Source: a virus. Taken from it: a stretch of DNA of 42,178 nucleotides. Positions 18,301 to 33,819 of this stretch are shown one piece after another. The notes beneath the pieces are model-generated. The model had not been told where the DNA came from. It searched no databases and saw nothing but the letters and a program-made list of their open reading frames with translations. The position numbers were made by a program, and so were the translations under genes. Within the stretch, counting starts at the first letter, position 1; each line of letters begins with the position of its first letter. The DNA lies in IMG/VR virus record IMGVR_UViG_3300032315_001292, positions 1-42,178 of that record, one strand, 5' to 3'.

Positions 18301-18331
18301 TTTGATTAAACTCAAGTTTGTTGTATCTTTG
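18301..18331 (+). promoter_or_regulatory. Promoter of the first RNA-array unit
   Basis: TTTG at 18301-18304, 19 bases, then TATCTTTG at 18324-18331. This matches the Bacteroidota promoter and lies 48 bases before the first tRNA. A boxA-like site follows in the leader. Confidence 0.7.
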
Positions 18332-18510: not shown

Positions 18511-18626
18511 AGTCAGGTGGCGGAATGGTAGACGCTAATTTTCAAAATGTGAGGTATAGATACTGGTTAAGTACACGCCGGGAACAGATACAAAATACCA
18601 TACAGGTTCGAATCCTGTCCTGACTA
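18511..18626 (+). ncRNA. tRNA-like RNA, AGTCAGG family, 66-nt insert in place of anticodon arm
   Basis: Acceptor AGTCAGG/CCTGACT, D arm GGCGGAATGGTAGACGC and T arm ACAGGTTCGAATCCTGT are perfect. Bases 18536-18601 replace the anticodon arm. They hold ATTT-TCA-AAAT and GGTA/TACC pairings but no 5 bp stem with a 7-base anticodon loop. This is one of eight such elements. Confidence 0.75.
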
Positions 18627-19160: not shown

Positions 19161-19204
19161 TTGGAAAAAATTGAAATGTTTTGAGTCGTGAGACTTCAAA
19201 ATTT

Positions 19205-19287
19205 AGTCAGGTGGCGCAAATGGTAGACGGTTGGTGCTGGGCAGTGGCTCCTCCAAAGGCATACAGGTTCGAATCCTGTCCTGACGA
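19205..19287 (+). ncRNA. tRNA-like RNA, AGTCAGG family, 32-nt middle without anticodon stem
   Basis: It has the length of a normal tRNA-Leu (83 nt) and the family acceptor and T arm, but the bases where the anticodon stem should be do not pair at all. The acceptor ends CCTGACG (one mismatch) and the D stem has one mismatch. Confidence 0.65.
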
Positions 19288-19496: not shown

Positions 19497-19592
19497 AGTC
19501 AGGTGGCGGAATGGTAGACGCATCGAAAGATAGGTACGGTATGGAGCCCGATTAAATAATCCTAATTACAGGTTCGAATCCTGTCCTGACTA
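19497..19592 (+). ncRNA. tRNA-like RNA, AGTCAGG family, 46-nt insert
   Basis: Family acceptor, D arm and T arm are perfect. The insert 19522-19567 starts with an ATC-GAAA-GAT tetraloop hairpin and has TAGG/CCTA pairing; no anticodon arm. Confidence 0.75.
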
Positions 19593-19686: not shown

Positions 19687-19805
19687 AGTCAGGTGGCGGA
19701 ATGGTAGACGCTAAGAGTTTCTTTAATGAGGTGGTCCTAGAGTAGCTGACACACTTAGATACAACAAGGTAACTACTCGCACAGGTTCGAATCCTGTCCT
19801 GACTA
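19687..19805 (+). ncRNA. tRNA-like RNA, AGTCAGG family, 69-nt insert
   Basis: Family acceptor, D arm and T arm are perfect. The insert 19712-19780 contains GAGTAG/CTACTC closing a 27-nt loop; no anticodon stem-loop. Confidence 0.75.
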
Positions 19806-19810
19806 CAAAT

Positions 19811-19852
19811 CTTAGGAGTAATTAACCTAAGACTGAGAGGTTATAAACTCTC
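19811..19852 (+). ncRNA. Two adjacent hairpins between tRNA-like genes
   Basis: CTTAGG/CCTAAG (19811-19831) and GAGAG/CTCTC (19835-19852). They may act as processing signals. Confidence 0.35.
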
Positions 19853-19855
19853 GAT

Positions 19856-19968
19856 TGGCTATGGTGTAATGGAGCACAGAGAAACTGAGTATGAAAGGGA
19901 TTACGGGAATCTTCCCGCAAACATCAGAAATGGGACTCAGGATTATGGTTCGAATCCATTTTAGTCAA
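19856..19968 (+). ncRNA. tRNA-like RNA of a second acceptor type, long insert
   Basis: Acceptor TGGCTAT pairs with TTAGTCA (six of seven, one G-U). The D arm is GTG/CAC with TAATGGAG and the T arm is TATGGTTCGAATCCATT. In place of the anticodon arm is an insert of about 65 nt with CTGAGT/ACTCAG closing it and a GGGAA/TTCCC hairpin inside. It shows that the insert feature is not limited to one acceptor family. Confidence 0.6.
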
Positions 19969-20174: not shown

Positions 20175-20277
20175 AGTCAGGAGCCCATTGGTTGGGGGCA
20201 CCTCCCCAAGGTTGAGTAACAGGTGATGCTGACTCTTTATGGTAAAGCCGAAACAGGTTCGAATCCTGTCCTGACTG
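20175..20277 (+). ncRNA. tRNA-like RNA, AGTCAGG family, divergent D region
   Basis: Acceptor and T arm match the family exactly, but the D arm is replaced too. A TTGGGG/CCCCAA hairpin (20192-20209) and CTTTA/TAAAG lie in the 71-nt middle. Only the acceptor-T domain of a tRNA is kept. Confidence 0.65.
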
Positions 20278-20279
20278 CA

Positions 20280-20416
20280 AAGACAATGGTTTTCCCCATT
20301 CAACGGATGTCGACAATCTAGAATGGAATCGGAATTCAGCACCCTCAGCCGAGGCCTCGTAAAACTACGATTAAGCTGTTAAGATTGGAGAGAGACGGGT
20401 ACTCCATCATTGTCTT
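20280..20416 (+). ncRNA. Structured spacer RNA with 9 bp terminal helix and internal branches
   Basis: AAGACAATG (20280-20288) pairs with CATTGTCTT (20408-20416). Inside, CAGC/GCTG encloses CCTC-AGCC-GAGG and CGTA-AAAC-TACG hairpins. It ends 4 bases before tRNA-Glu. Confidence 0.5.
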
Positions 20417-20494: not shown

Positions 20495-20564
20495 TTGGAG
20501 GTATAGGGGTAAACCCTTGAGGCGAAGTACAAGCCATAGTCACTGAACGTAAACTGACCTCCAA
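20495..20564 (+). ncRNA. Structured spacer RNA with 8 bp terminal helix
   Basis: TTGGAGGT (20495-20502) pairs with ACCTCCAA (20557-20564). GGG/CCC and AGT/ACT hairpins lie inside. Confidence 0.45.
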
Positions 20565-20568
20565 ACTA

Positions 20569-20654
20569 ATTAGAAGTGTCGCAATACGCGTTTCAATCTA
20601 ATTGATAGACGTATCAATGAAGATGTTCGAGGGTGAAAATCCCAAGCTTCTAAT
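20569..20654 (+). ncRNA. Cloverleaf-like structured spacer RNA
   Basis: ATTAGAAG (20569-20576) pairs with CTTCTAAT (20647-20654). Inside, in tRNA order: CGC-AATAC-GCG (20580-20590), TTGATA-GACG-TATCAA (20602-20617) and GGG-TGAAAAT-CCC (20631-20643) with a 7-base loop in the T-arm position. The usual GG and TTCRA consensus bases are absent. Confidence 0.5.
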
Positions 20655-20657
20655 CCT

Positions 20658-20892
20658 CCATTCTTAGTGTTATGTGGTAAAACACGTTGACTCTTACATC
20701 GCCTGGAGTGCTACAAATAAAAATGTGAGCTGTATTGAAATAGCCAGTTATAAGCCAACATAAAGTCGTTGGGTACAGACGGAGTAATTAACCAGAGTAT
20801 AGGCAGGAACTGTGACGATATAGCAAATACCCATTTGAGTATCCACTCCCGAATGTAAGACGAGTAAGTTGGTTCGAACCCAGCAGAATGGA
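20658..20892 (+). ncRNA. Giant tRNA-like RNA (235 nt) with about 170-nt insert
   Basis: Acceptor CCATTCT/AGAATGG is perfect; bases 8-9 are TA; D arm GTGT/ACAC holds TGTGGT; T arm GTTGG-TTCGAAC-CCAGC is good. Where the anticodon arm should be, CTTACAT (20693-20699) pairs with ATGTAAG (20853-20859). GGAGTG/CACTCC continue the helix inward around about 130 nt. It is far longer than any tRNA and lacks the tag-reading frame expected of tmRNA. Confidence 0.6.
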
Positions 20893-21105: not shown

Positions 21106-21190
21106 AGTCAGGTGGCGGAATGGATAGACGCGGCCCTATCAGGGGTAGAGGCGAAAGAAACTCATACAGGTTCGAATCCTGTCCTGACTA
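21106..21190 (+). ncRNA. tRNA-like RNA, AGTCAGG family, 34-nt middle
   Basis: Family acceptor, D and T arms are present. The middle has CAG behind U33, as a tRNA-Leu(CAG) would. However, CCCT-ATC-AGGG folds the anticodon into a stem and the canonical anticodon stem does not form, so it may be a decayed tRNA-Leu close to the ancestor of the family. Confidence 0.65.
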
Positions 21191-21436
21191 CACAGTGTTG
21201 GCTACAATCACCGAGTAGGGTAGTACACTTAAATAAAACAAGAACGGGGAAAACACCGAATCTGCAGATAACGGCGAAGTACCAACGAACGGTGTAATGG
21301 AATCAATTCAATACCTCTACGTGGTGGTTCTAGAAACATTCTTTGGAATGGCTAAATTGAAAAAGTTACATGGGTCGCTGGCAGAGTTGGTCTATTACAT
21401 CTGTATTGTTTTATACATTTCTTTATATTTATATCT
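21191..21436 (+). other. Spacer with tRNA-Ser-like 5' half interrupted by a homing endonuclease
   Basis: CACCG and CGGTG at about 21210 and 21288 could close another structured RNA. At 21372-21408 GGGTCGC, TG, GCAGAGTTGGTCTATTACA and CTGTATTG read like the 5' half of a Ser-type tRNA, but no matching 3' half follows before the endonuclease gene. A T arm with acceptor end lies on the other side at 22216-22240. Confidence 0.4.
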
Positions 21437-22156
21437 ATGGAAATATGTTCGTATGGTTGTGGTAAAGAAGCTAGATTCTTTTTTAAGACTGGAAATAAAT
21501 GTTGTGAAAAATCGCCTAATTCTTGTGAAAGCAAAAGGAATAAAGATTCTGAAAAGAAAAAAGGAAAATTTAAAGGAACACCATATTGGCAATTACCTGA
21601 AGACAAAAGAAAATTACCCTTTATACCTTGGAATAAAGGTAAAGTTGGGGTTTATACCGAAGAATACAGAAAAAAAATTAGTAATTCTTTAAAAGGAAGA
21701 ACTGATATTGGTAGAGCATCTACAGATGAAAAAGAAACCGAAAGAAAGAAAAAAATATCAGAAACAATGAAAAAAAATCCATTATGTGGAGGTTTAAGAA
21801 AATGTGGTGGTAGAGGAAAAAAAGGTAGATATAAAGGATATTGGTGTGATAGTAGTTGGGAATTGGCTTGGGTTATTTATAATTTAGAACACAATATCAA
21901 ATTTGAAAGAAACAATATTGGTTTTGAATATGAATATAAAGGACAAAAAAGAAAATATTATCCTGATTTTTTAATAACAGAAAACTATTATGAAATAAAA
22001 GGTAGGAGAAGTTTCGAAAAACTTGATGCTGTAAATAAAGAAAAAATTAGACAATTTAAGTTTAATCTAAAAGTCTTATATGAGAAGGATATGAAACCAT
22101 ATCTAACTTATGTTATAGAAAAATACGGAAAAGATTATACTAAATTGTATGAATAA
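21437..22156 (+). CDS. Homing endonuclease with NUMOD3-like repeats and PD-(D/E)XK-like domain
   Basis: A 239-residue basic protein inside the RNA array. The N-terminus is a zinc-binding segment (CSYGCGKEARFFFK...CCEKSPNSC). Residues about 72-115 hold two NUMOD3-type repeats (YTEEYRKKISNSLKGR, KKKISETMKKNP). The C-terminal domain has GYWCDSSWELAWVIY, then YEYKGQKRKYYPDFLITENY, then YEIKGRR; the E...PDF...EIK pattern is the PD-(D/E)XK nuclease core used by some phage homing endonucleases. It is flanked by tRNA-like half-genes, as if it had landed in a tRNA gene. A self-splicing intron around it was looked for but not established. Confidence 0.85.
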   Translation: MEICSYGCGKEARFFFKTGNKCCEKSPNSCESKRNKDSEKKKGKFKGTPYWQLPEDKRKLPFIPWNKGKVGVYTEEYRKKISNSLKGRTDIGRASTDEKETERKKKISETMKKNPLCGGLRKCGGRGKKGRYKGYWCDSSWELAWVIYNLEHNIKFERNNIGFEYEYKGQKRKYYPDFLITENYYEIKGRRSFEKLDAVNKEKIRQFKFNLKVLYEKDMKPYLTYVIEKYGKDYTKLYE

Positions 22157-22184
22157 AGAGAATATCCGAATGAACAAGGGTTCC

Positions 22185-22241
22185 AACTTAAAATCAGTTG
22201 GGTAGTAAAAGCTCCGTGAGTTCGAATCTCATTCCTTCCTC
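22185..22241 (+). pseudogene. 3' fragment of a tRNA (Leu/Ser type)
   Basis: CCAAC-TTAAAATCA-GTTGG resembles an anticodon arm with UAA, followed by a variable arm and T arm GTGAGTTCGAATCTCAT and TCCTTCC. No matching acceptor 5' strand (GGAAGGA) precedes it, so it is a fragment, possibly the 3' exon of the gene split by the endonuclease. Confidence 0.45.
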
Positions 22242-23725: not shown

Positions 23726-23835
23726 AGTCAGGTGGCGGAATGGTAGACGCAAAAACTGAAGGCGGATAAGTGATTTAAGAAGCATTATAAAAAAGCATGT
23801 CAAATCACATACAGGTTCGAATCCTGTCCTGACTG
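23726..23835 (+). ncRNA. tRNA-like RNA, AGTCAGG family, 60-nt insert
   Basis: Family acceptor, D and T arms are perfect. In insert 23751-23810, GTGATTT pairs with AAATCAC to give a 7 bp extension stem with an internal GC-AT hairpin. No anticodon loop. Confidence 0.75.
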
Positions 23836-24337: not shown

Positions 24338-24506
24338 AGTCAGGTGGCGGAATGGTAGACGCACACATTAACTCGCAAGGTTGATATTGCGCGCTGGACG
24401 TAAGCGGACATCGTGCAGGAGTGGCAAAACGCTGGTGGTACGGTTGCAAACGTAAATGGAAGAGAAAACCACAGATGGCATACAGGTTCGAATCCTGTCC
24501 TGACTA
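24338..24506 (+). ncRNA. tRNA-like RNA, AGTCAGG family, 119-nt insert
   Basis: The longest member of the family (169 nt). Family acceptor, D and T arms are perfect; insert 24363-24481 has several short hairpins and no anticodon arm. Its leader (GAATCTCAGAGT...GGGAAA, 24316-24334) is duplicated before the 21.1 kb element, so leader and gene were copied together. Confidence 0.75.
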
Positions 24507-31179: not shown

Positions 31180-31899
31180 TTAATTTTTTCTTTTAACCCA
31201 AGCAATTCTTAATAAATGAGCTGGTGTTGCTTGAACATTACCTCCAACATTATGTAACACAATTGGTACATTGTCCACAATGACCATTACTCTACCAACA
31301 TGCGTATTCATCGCCCACAAATTATTTTGATTCCTATTTTTATCACTCAAAAAACCTTCGTAAAATGCCTCCTCATGATGTGAAGATGGTGGATAAAATA
31401 TACCAACTAAATCTCCATTTTGTAGAGGAATATTTGGTCTAGATGGTACAATACCATTTACAAATTGTGCAACTTTGTCTTTATAAGGACCATTTTGAAC
31501 ACCACCTCCTTTTTGATTTATAGTATTCCACATTTGTTGAGCGTATTTAATTTTTTCAGGGGGAATGTTGTTGAATGCGGAATAGACTATCTTACCAGGA
31601 CCTTGTTTATAGGTTGTCCAAGCTTTACCAATATAATTCAAATCGTCGGAAATATCATTAATGAATTGTGCACAATTTTCATCGTTTGGTTTACAAATTC
31701 TGTTGGTAGAACTATCGGTACTAATCTCTGAAAAATCAATTTGTTTCTTGAATTCAGGATTCATTTGAGGATGAACAGCAATTTTTGGTTTTTCAATACC
31801 CAAAGTCCTTTTTATTTTTTTAAATAAGTTTTGTTCATTCAAAACCTTGTTGATTATATCAACCAATTCAGATTCGGTTAACTTGATTGTTTTTTTCAT
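31180..31899 (-). CDS. Tagged NlpC/P60-like hydrolase
   Basis: A 239-residue protein. N-terminus IKLTESELVDIINKVLNE is the clearest tag consensus. The catalytic candidates are Cys in CKPNDENCAQFINDISD and His in MNTHVGRVMVIVDN, with LQNGDLVGIFYPPSSHHEEAF between, an order and spacing like NlpC/P60 or CHAP cysteine peptidases of peptidoglycan. It might therefore help the DNA or the phage cross the cell wall. The family call rests on order of motifs and not on a full match. Confidence 0.6.
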   Translation of the reverse strand: MKKTIKLTESELVDIINKVLNEQNLFKKIKRTLGIEKPKIAVHPQMNPEFKKQIDFSEISTDSSTNRICKPNDENCAQFINDISDDLNYIGKAWTTYKQGPGKIVYSAFNNIPPEKIKYAQQMWNTINQKGGGVQNGPYKDKVAQFVNGIVPSRPNIPLQNGDLVGIFYPPSSHHEEAFYEGFLSDKNRNQNNLWAMNTHVGRVMVIVDNVPIVLHNVGGNVQATPAHLLRIAWVKRKN

Positions 31900-32577: not shown

Positions 32578-33819
32578 TTACGAAAATAAATCATAAATCG
32601 ATCTCACACATTTCTCACCCAAAGCAATTAATCCTGAAGTCCATTTTTCAAATGTCGTTATTTTTACTTCATCATCTTTACCATTATCTGGTAATATAAA
32701 CACCCATTCTGGTTCATATTGGTTTATCAACCGTAAAAAGTTTTCACCAACATTAATACATCCTGCACCAGCTCTAGTGTAATTTTTAATTGGTTGTCCA
32801 TCCTTACCTGCCCGCTGTCTCAGTTCTTTTCTTTTTTCACCAGCACTACCGTGTACCGCGGTGGGGTCGGTTAAAATGTCTGTAGCCCCTCTCAATTTAA
32901 ATGTGTTATCTATACCTTTACCATATCCTTCAAAACCTTTTGTTTGTGTTCCAGTAGACACTCTGTACGCTCCTGATGGTGTAAAATCTAAGCCAAGTTC
33001 TCTTTGTACTGTATATGAATAAGGAAAACCTTGGGGAAATTCTTTATCTGTGGGTGATATCATCCAATTCGTCGCATTTGGATATCTGTCTAAATATTTT
33101 TTAATTTTTTTGGATTCAGGATTATTTGGATTTTTTTTGGCAAACTCTAACGATCGTTTGTACCATTCTTCATATCCACCTTTACCTTCACCGACTCCTG
33201 GGTCCTTACTTCTACCTGTTGTTATAGTATCTTTACCTAAAAACTTATAATTTGGTCCGAATAAAGAAACAATTGAAGCATCTTTATTAACAATCATAAA
33301 AGTATCACCTTTGAATTCATTGTTAAGTTTCATGCGTTCTATAAATTTATAACTCCTTTCTGAAATTTGACCTGTCAAATTTTCAATTTGTTTTTTTTGA
33401 GTTGTTTGAGTTTTTTGTCCAACACCACTTGTCTTGATAGTTTGTCCTTTTTGTAACATTCTTATTTGATCATTACTCAATGGACTTACACCTAATTTTT
33501 TTGCAGTATTTGTACCTACAATCCCATCTGGTGTTAAACTATTTTTTCTTTGAAAGTCAACTATTGCATTCCGAGTCATTTTTCCATAAACTCCATCAAT
33601 TCCATCTCTATTTGGTCCTGAAGTACCCAAATTATATCCCAAACTCTTAAGTTTTGTTTGAATAGTGGCAATGTTTTTTGCACTTTGGGTATTTTGTGTA
33701 CGTGATATTATATCTTGACCGAAATTGGAAGGTATTGGTCTCCCTAAACCTTGTTCTGATAATACTTTATTAATTATTTTCAATAAATCAGATTCGTCTA
33801 GTTTAATTATTTTTTTCAT
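32578..33819 (-). CDS. Tagged L,D-transpeptidase-like protein with peptidoglycan-binding domain
   Basis: A 413-residue protein. N-terminus IKLDESDLLKIINKVLSE is a near twin of the tag on the 31.2 kb protein. Residues about 46-110 form a peptidoglycan-binding type 1 domain (IATIQTKLKSLGYNLG, YGKMTRNAIVDFQ). The C-terminal part has AVHGSAG (His323) and RAGAGCINVGENFLRL (Cys354), the His/Cys core of YkuD-type L,D-transpeptidases, with PSGAYRVSTG before it. It would link or cut peptide cross-links in peptidoglycan. Together with the nearby lysozyme-like and NlpC-like proteins it suggests cell-wall remodelling enzymes carried in the head. Confidence 0.8.
   Translation of the reverse strand: MKKIIKLDESDLLKIINKVLSEQGLGRPIPSNFGQDIISRTQNTQSAKNIATIQTKLKSLGYNLGTSGPNRDGIDGVYGKMTRNAIVDFQRKNSLTPDGIVGTNTAKKLGVSPLSNDQIRMLQKGQTIKTSGVGQKTQTTQKKQIENLTGQISERSYKFIERMKLNNEFKGDTFMIVNKDASIVSLFGPNYKFLGKDTITTGRSKDPGVGEGKGGYEEWYKRSLEFAKKNPNNPESKKIKKYLDRYPNATNWMISPTDKEFPQGFPYSYTVQRELGLDFTPSGAYRVSTGTQTKGFEGYGKGIDNTFKLRGATDILTDPTAVHGSAGEKRKELRQRAGKDGQPIKNYTRAGAGCINVGENFLRLINQYEPEWVFILPDNGKDDEVKITTFEKWTSGLIALGEKCVRSIYDLFS

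Follow-up and report, generated by a model that had tools for sequence, protein, structure and literature searches.

The tRNA-like element at 20658-20892 (+ strand; 235 nt including discriminator A) of the window, that is, of the whole 42,178-nt stretch analysed (a 42-kb contig from an uncultivated virus, with endolysin and homing-endonuclease genes), belongs to a family of phage RNAs in which a tRNA-derived shell surrounds an inner domain that is not an anticodon arm and that differs between near-identical genomes. Such replacement suggests fast-changing RNA tools in a tRNA coat. We put at roughly 40% the probability that the shell serves processing and stability while the inner domain is an exchangeable effector of fast turnover, perhaps for counter-defence; family membership and swapping are independent of that functional reading. 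The structure reported in the initial annotation of this DNA stands, and its interpretation holds in part.

Anatomy of the 235-nt element

Every piece of the tRNA-like frame named in the initial annotation was found in the sequence. The acceptor strand CCATTCT (20658-20664) pairs with AGAATGG (20885-20891) and is kept in all homologs, with either C1-G or U1-G. T8 and A9 are both present, the D arm GTGT-TATGTGGTAAA-ACAC (20667-20685) has GG in its loop, and the T arm GTTGG-TTCGAAC-CCAGC (20868-20884) covaries among homologs (GTTGG/CCAAC, GCTGG/CCAGC). The element has the 7-bp acceptor and the D and T arms of a tRNA (RF00005), and no Rfam search listed a tRNA covariance-model match above cut-off at 20658-20892. 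The A14 and U48 marks are missing, and for the D-arm region of the homologs RNAalifold favours an alternative pairing. The anticodon stem is replaced by an extended arm whose outer helix joins CTTACAT (20693-20699) to ATGTAAG (20853-20859); an anticodon arm with a 7-nt loop is absent from the element and from its 104-nt homologs. The fold has a minimum free energy of -59.9 kcal/mol, while shuffles average -49.6 +/- 4.2, giving a z of -2.4. Scanning the whole window with the shell pattern gave 19 real matches, all on the + strand, and none in 40 dinucleotide shuffles.

Compact and long alleles

A search with the 3′ arm of the element returned six contigs besides L013, all relatives coming from other uncultivated phages. 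Their usual form is 104 nt, and the long form is confined to the window and a single sister, G029 (L147/L157). The 'giant' size once taken as the defining trait is thus peculiar to one lineage, in which an extra ~140 nt (a 141-nt arm) stand in place of the terminal hairpin. At this locus the window and G029 have 235 nt and G001 and G026 have 104 nt, with flanks 94-100% identical except on the downstream side of G026 (76%). In a search with a covariance model built on the 104-nt form, the model's own members score ~129 bits and the long allele appears as two half matches of ~30 bits each.

Four distinct 104-nt relatives retain the shell and the CTTACAT/ATGTAAG helix. Among homologs this outer helix also appears as CTCACAT/ATGTGAG and CTTATAT/ATATGAG, with compensatory changes in L145 and L148; over the arm and T stem of the four sequences 3 pairs are doubly changed and 1 cell is broken, which supports the outer helix. 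A second helix had been proposed as well, GGAGTG (20705-20710) with CACTCC (20844-20849). It is present in the window, closing the lineage-specific arm (20705-20849, + strand) that replaces the short compact hairpin GGTTAGCGCTRATCC in the window and G029/L147 only, but it changes to GGAGTT/CCCTCC in G029, and since it occurs in just these two sequences and two of its six pairs are lost in one of them, covariation gives it no support. The 141-nt insert, sought elsewhere, is present only in the window and G029; a match in L161 was rejected as it spans only 18 nt inside an apparent protein gene.

The element's length, and the arm it has where the anticodon belongs, might suggest an intron-containing tRNA that is spliced to a normal one, a reading we find scarcely credible. 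Compared with tmRNA and intron models, as the initial annotation had suggested, the element matches neither: tmRNA, introns and other Rfam families give no meaningful score (ARAGORN, Rfam), and no group I or II intron core is matched in Rfam even at thresholds relaxed to E 5. Because the long allele has no compact hairpin loop, excision of the insert would not regenerate the compact form. Anticodon arms occur in the family only at chance level, and the compact arm, inspected by eye, is without the archaeal-type bulge-helix-bulge (3-nt bulge, 4-bp helix, 3-nt bulge), its consensus having 1-nt and 3-nt bulges that flank 2 bp.

The shell family

In most members the tRNA-derived shell reads AGTCAGG...CCTGACTA and encloses a non-anticodon inner domain. 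The family occurs in >100 IMG/VR contigs, and the 5′ shell 24-mer AGTCAGGTGGCGGAATGGNAGACG has matches in at least 120 IMG/VR stretches. From fetched loci we gathered 177 elements (68-259 nt, median 106, the top of the range being inflated because some joined neighbours were included), with ~146 nonredundant inner domains. The discriminator is A in 132/146 nonredundant elements, and T stands at position 48, the partner in A15-U48, in 85 of the 91 elements with a standard D arm; T8 was demanded by the search pattern, so its conservation is no evidence. In the AGTCAGG family a properly placed anticodon arm was found in 1/91 members, which is no more than chance level (0.4 expected). In line with the initial annotation, the architecture extends beyond the AGTCAGG lineage, to the acceptors CCATTCT, TGGCTA, AGTCGGT and AATCGGG; 7/8 non-AGTCAGG acceptors are fully paired, against 2.2 with random partners.

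Middles are more stable than their shuffles, with a mean z of -0.69 compared with -0.16 for a genic control. In the AGTCAGG family a helix that closes the entire middle has a frequency of 0.35, the same as in shuffles (0.35), so the 'extended arm' is not general. No common motif was found among inner domains apart from occasional internal T arms (7 versus 0.2).

Among the 50,697 phage records of named isolates only short tRNA-arm or chance matches were found; one tRNA-Leu, from Arthrobacter phage Atuin, matches the 5′ side at 96% over ~25 bases, but its annotation is that of a regular tRNA-Leu(gag). In a cellular collection of 84,980 species the shell 24-mer was present in only 4 contigs, all of them MAG contigs and probably misbinned phage. 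We found no published description of such RNAs in the open-access literature and, going by this and by the Rfam non-matches, the family is apparently undescribed so far.

In the window, all on the + strand, the 113-nt element at 19856-19968 singled out in the initial annotation proved real: its TGGCTA/TAGTCA acceptor is TGATTA/TAATCA in G027, a compensatory change, and its inner part differs in sisters. AGTCAGG shells lie at 18511-18626, 19204-19287, 19497-19592, 19687-19805, 20175-20277 (with an unusual D region), 21106-21191 (called tRNA-Pro(agg) by ARAGORN), 23726-23835 and 24338-24506 (169 nt with discriminator). Of these AGTCAGG elements, some exceed the cut-off of the Rfam tRNA model, though weakly (38-43 bits).

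A recurring hairpin with constant loop AGTAATTA, at 19809-19833 in the window and also in L129, L140, L141, L150, L153, L154 and L158, has stems that vary and still pair (CTTAGG/CCTAAG, GTTCGG/CCGAAC, CAGGG/CCCTG, CCGAG/CTCGG); it resembles a module for binding protein or RNA. Many AGTCAGG elements have another repeated hairpin upstream (as in TGACAGCTCGGAAAGACGAGCAACATAGTCAGG), its loop kept and its stem variable, for example in L013, L084, L090 and L152. D-loop insertions with AGTAGTGGCGAGCGAAC or close variants occur in AGTCAGG elements of L128 (8065, +), L132 (1926, -) and L138 (1483, +); they agree with Escherichia coli 23S rRNA 241-257 at 16 of 17 bases and possibly have a 3D motif in common with it.

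Replacement of inner domains in place

In four related arrays the inner domain differs at the same locus between flanks that are mostly 90-100% identical, and canonical tRNA blocks of these arrays are 97-99% identical. The initial annotation had missed this exchange of inner domains within persisting shells. Clear replacement relative to G001, G029 or G026 is seen at six of ten window loci. Aligned by locus, with rows whose spans held extra elements left uncounted, the middles at 19204, 19856, 20658, 21106 (G029), 23726 (G029) and 24338 have 22-56% global identity, which would be about the level expected of unrelated sequences this short. At 19204-19287 an unrelated inner part occupies the locus in the sister G001, between flanks of 100% identity, and at 24338-24506 unrelated inner parts are found in G001, G029 and G026. 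BLAST alignment of the window with G001 breaks off in the D arm of the latter element (24358) and restarts at its T arm (24481), the middle being different; the window element with its inner RNA is matched instead by a different G001 locus, at 98%. The Gly(tcc)-Pro(tgg) locus holds four different cassettes in four arrays, and one cassette, with the inner RNA of 19687-19805, sits at two loci of G029.

All swapping and family evidence comes from metagenome assemblies, and the ~25-bp common arms are repeated up to ~13 times per contig, which raises the question of whether assemblers joined wrong middles through them. Such chimeric joining is possible within the AGTCAGG set and not readily so for the CCATTCT or TGGCTA elements; the latter have arms outside the repeated set, yet their inner parts are also replaced. 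Moreover, the same inner types, with covariation, appear in independent metagenomes. We therefore regard an assembly artefact as a very improbable source of the pattern.

Constraint on inner domains

Shell and inner RNA are separable. One inner RNA, GGAGTGGCCACAA...CATTACACGG, occurs in six contigs within three acceptor stems (AGTCGGT/ACCGACT, AGTCAGG/CCTGACT and AATCGGG/CCCGATT); 11 of the 43 pairs of this type are doubly changed, with compensation in the acceptor, D-position, inner and T helices. The other recurring inner types have 227 inner pairs, 11 of them doubly changed, and 8/566 broken cells, a count biased low because the structures were derived from those same alignments; for these types more weight belongs to the double changes. 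Compensatory changes in recurring types, together with one inner RNA in three acceptors, indicate that at least some inner parts are selected.

This selection bears on the two main rivals of an exchangeable effector. The shells might instead be processing punctuation, marking cut sites that free adjacent structured spacers and tRNAs while the inner part drifts freely or is replaced. Helix-closed spacers are indeed packed between shells on the + strand, at 20280-20416 (closing helix AAGACAATG/CATTGTCTT; z -2.0), 20495-20564 (TTGGAGGT/ACCTCCAA, with a cloverleaf-like fold; z -1.8) and 20568-20655 (9-bp closing helix; z -2.9; kept beside the 235-nt-type element in five other contigs), and the extreme diversity of inner parts with their just modest mean stability would also fit. 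However, compensatory changes hold inner base pairs in the recurring types and one inner RNA recurs in three acceptors, so that we consider punctuation unlikely.

The second rival makes the shell the working part, a decoy or substitute tRNA with no anticodon, possibly leucylated, that titrates tRNA nucleases, toxins or synthetases. The AGTCAGG shell retains A73, A14/A15-U48 and G18G19. Leucylation depends on A73 and D/T-loop contacts, the anticodon arm being dispensable (PMC9976931); on these rules a leucylated AGTCAGG shell is possible, the other shells being without the needed marks. In favour of a decoy, the variable loops of tRNAs are attacked by Septu and retron-Eco7, two systems that tRNAs of phages counteract (PMC13096335). 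But shells vary (CCATTCT, TGGCTA, AATCGGG), the 235-nt element is one of those without A14 and U48, and a decoy would have no need for specific conserved inner folds. We hold this reading to be quite unlikely.

Comparison with known RNAs

Like tmRNA (SsrA), the 235-nt element has a tRNA-like acceptor and T arm and a long arm where the anticodon stem belongs; unlike tmRNA, it has a real D arm and an A-U third acceptor pair in place of the alanine identity pair G3-U70, and no tag reading frame was found in it. YrlA, a bacterial Y RNA, carries a tRNA-like module at one end of its Ro-binding stem. It too is a non-coding RNA that mimics tRNA arms, whereas in the phage shells these arms are the RNA's own two ends (for YrlA the comparison by search covered Rfam).

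To our knowledge, a tRNA scaffold with a replaced anticodon arm is otherwise known only as an engineering method. Engineered scaffolds retain the acceptor, T and D arms and put an arbitrary structured RNA in the place of the anticodon arm, for stability (PMC3753655); they are artificial, while the phage shells are natural, of many types and exchanged between phages. Phage tRNA islands also encode GOLLD and ROOL (PMC12286853), structured RNAs whose function is unknown and which, too, lie near tRNA arrays; these are far bigger, belong to conserved families and make cages, and neither had an Rfam match here. The likeness to phage antitoxin mimics is functional only: phage PhiTE defeats ToxIN by RNA mimicry of the ToxI antitoxin (PMC3475682), an RNA that arises quickly in the phage and disarms the host's defence, and this is a repeat RNA without a tRNA shell.

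Proposed function

Under the preferred reading of shell and exchangeable effector, host RNase P, RNase Z and CCA addition would excise the shell RNA from the tRNA-array transcript, the shell would protect the inner RNA from decay, and the inner domain would be the working part. Recognition of the shell by tRNA maturation enzymes would have its parallel in the engineered scaffolds (PMC3753655). Recombination in the conserved arms would exchange inner domains between phages, and these domains may be RNAs that decoy or inhibit host defence or tRNA-targeting enzymes. A role in conflict appears most likely given the fast turnover of inner domains amid identical flanks; rapid replacement of cargo at fixed sites is the pattern of conflict genes. 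Precedents are the antitoxin mimicry of PhiTE (PMC3475682) and defences directed at tRNA, Septu among them (PMC13096335). No defence or counter-defence gene linked to shell elements was found.

Two other roles for the middles were tried and rejected, rRNA mimicry and antisense to phage DNA, as matches were in no clear excess over shuffles. Those to E. coli 16S, 23S and 5S rRNA were not in excess, and those to phage DNA, both strands taken together, were in slight excess at k 11 (2275 versus 2149 +/- 32) and in none at k 13-14.

Extended to a widespread phage system, in which tRNA shells are the standard chassis for RNA effectors that are exchanged by arm recombination and serve counter-defence or inter-phage competition as a fast-evolving repertoire of the tRNA islands, the reading becomes doubtful. 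If it is true, phages carry natural tRNA scaffolds whose contents are replaced in the manner of conflict genes, and phage tRNA islands may be RNA arsenals besides translation aids, which would make the purpose of the islands testable. It might also account for odd or weak tRNAs in searches of large phages, and it would provide a simple signature for locating hundreds of unknown structured RNAs.

Genomic setting

ARAGORN finds 24 tRNA genes at 18.3-24.7 kb of the window, the shell element at 21106-21191 being counted among them. A Bacteroidota-type promoter, TTTG-N19-TATCTTTG, lies at 18301 directly before the first tRNA; as ~2.4 matches of this type are expected in the window by chance, Bacteroidota is suggested only as host phylum, and a host genus was sought and not found.

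Three sister arrays (L129 5076-5162, L154 and L157) have an intact tRNA-Ser(UGA). Neither ARAGORN nor Rfam finds this tRNA in the window, where a ribozyme/endonuclease insertion lies (21302-22240). The HDV-like ribozyme (21298-21364, +) sits at the 5′ edge of this ~900-bp insertion, which has an endonuclease-like gene at 21437-22156. It scores 33.3 bits to HDV-F-prausnitzii, below the gathering threshold of 44 and with an E value of 6e-5 from a short search, and its core ACCTCTACGTGGTG and GGCTAA are conserved. HDV-like theta ribozymes are already known near phage tRNAs (PMC10879173).

Several unrelated proteins of the window, encoded on both strands (e.g. 31180-31899 and 32578-33819), start with a similar leader of ~20 residues (MKKxIKLxESxLxxIINKVLxEQ-like), which is perhaps a capsid-targeting tag.
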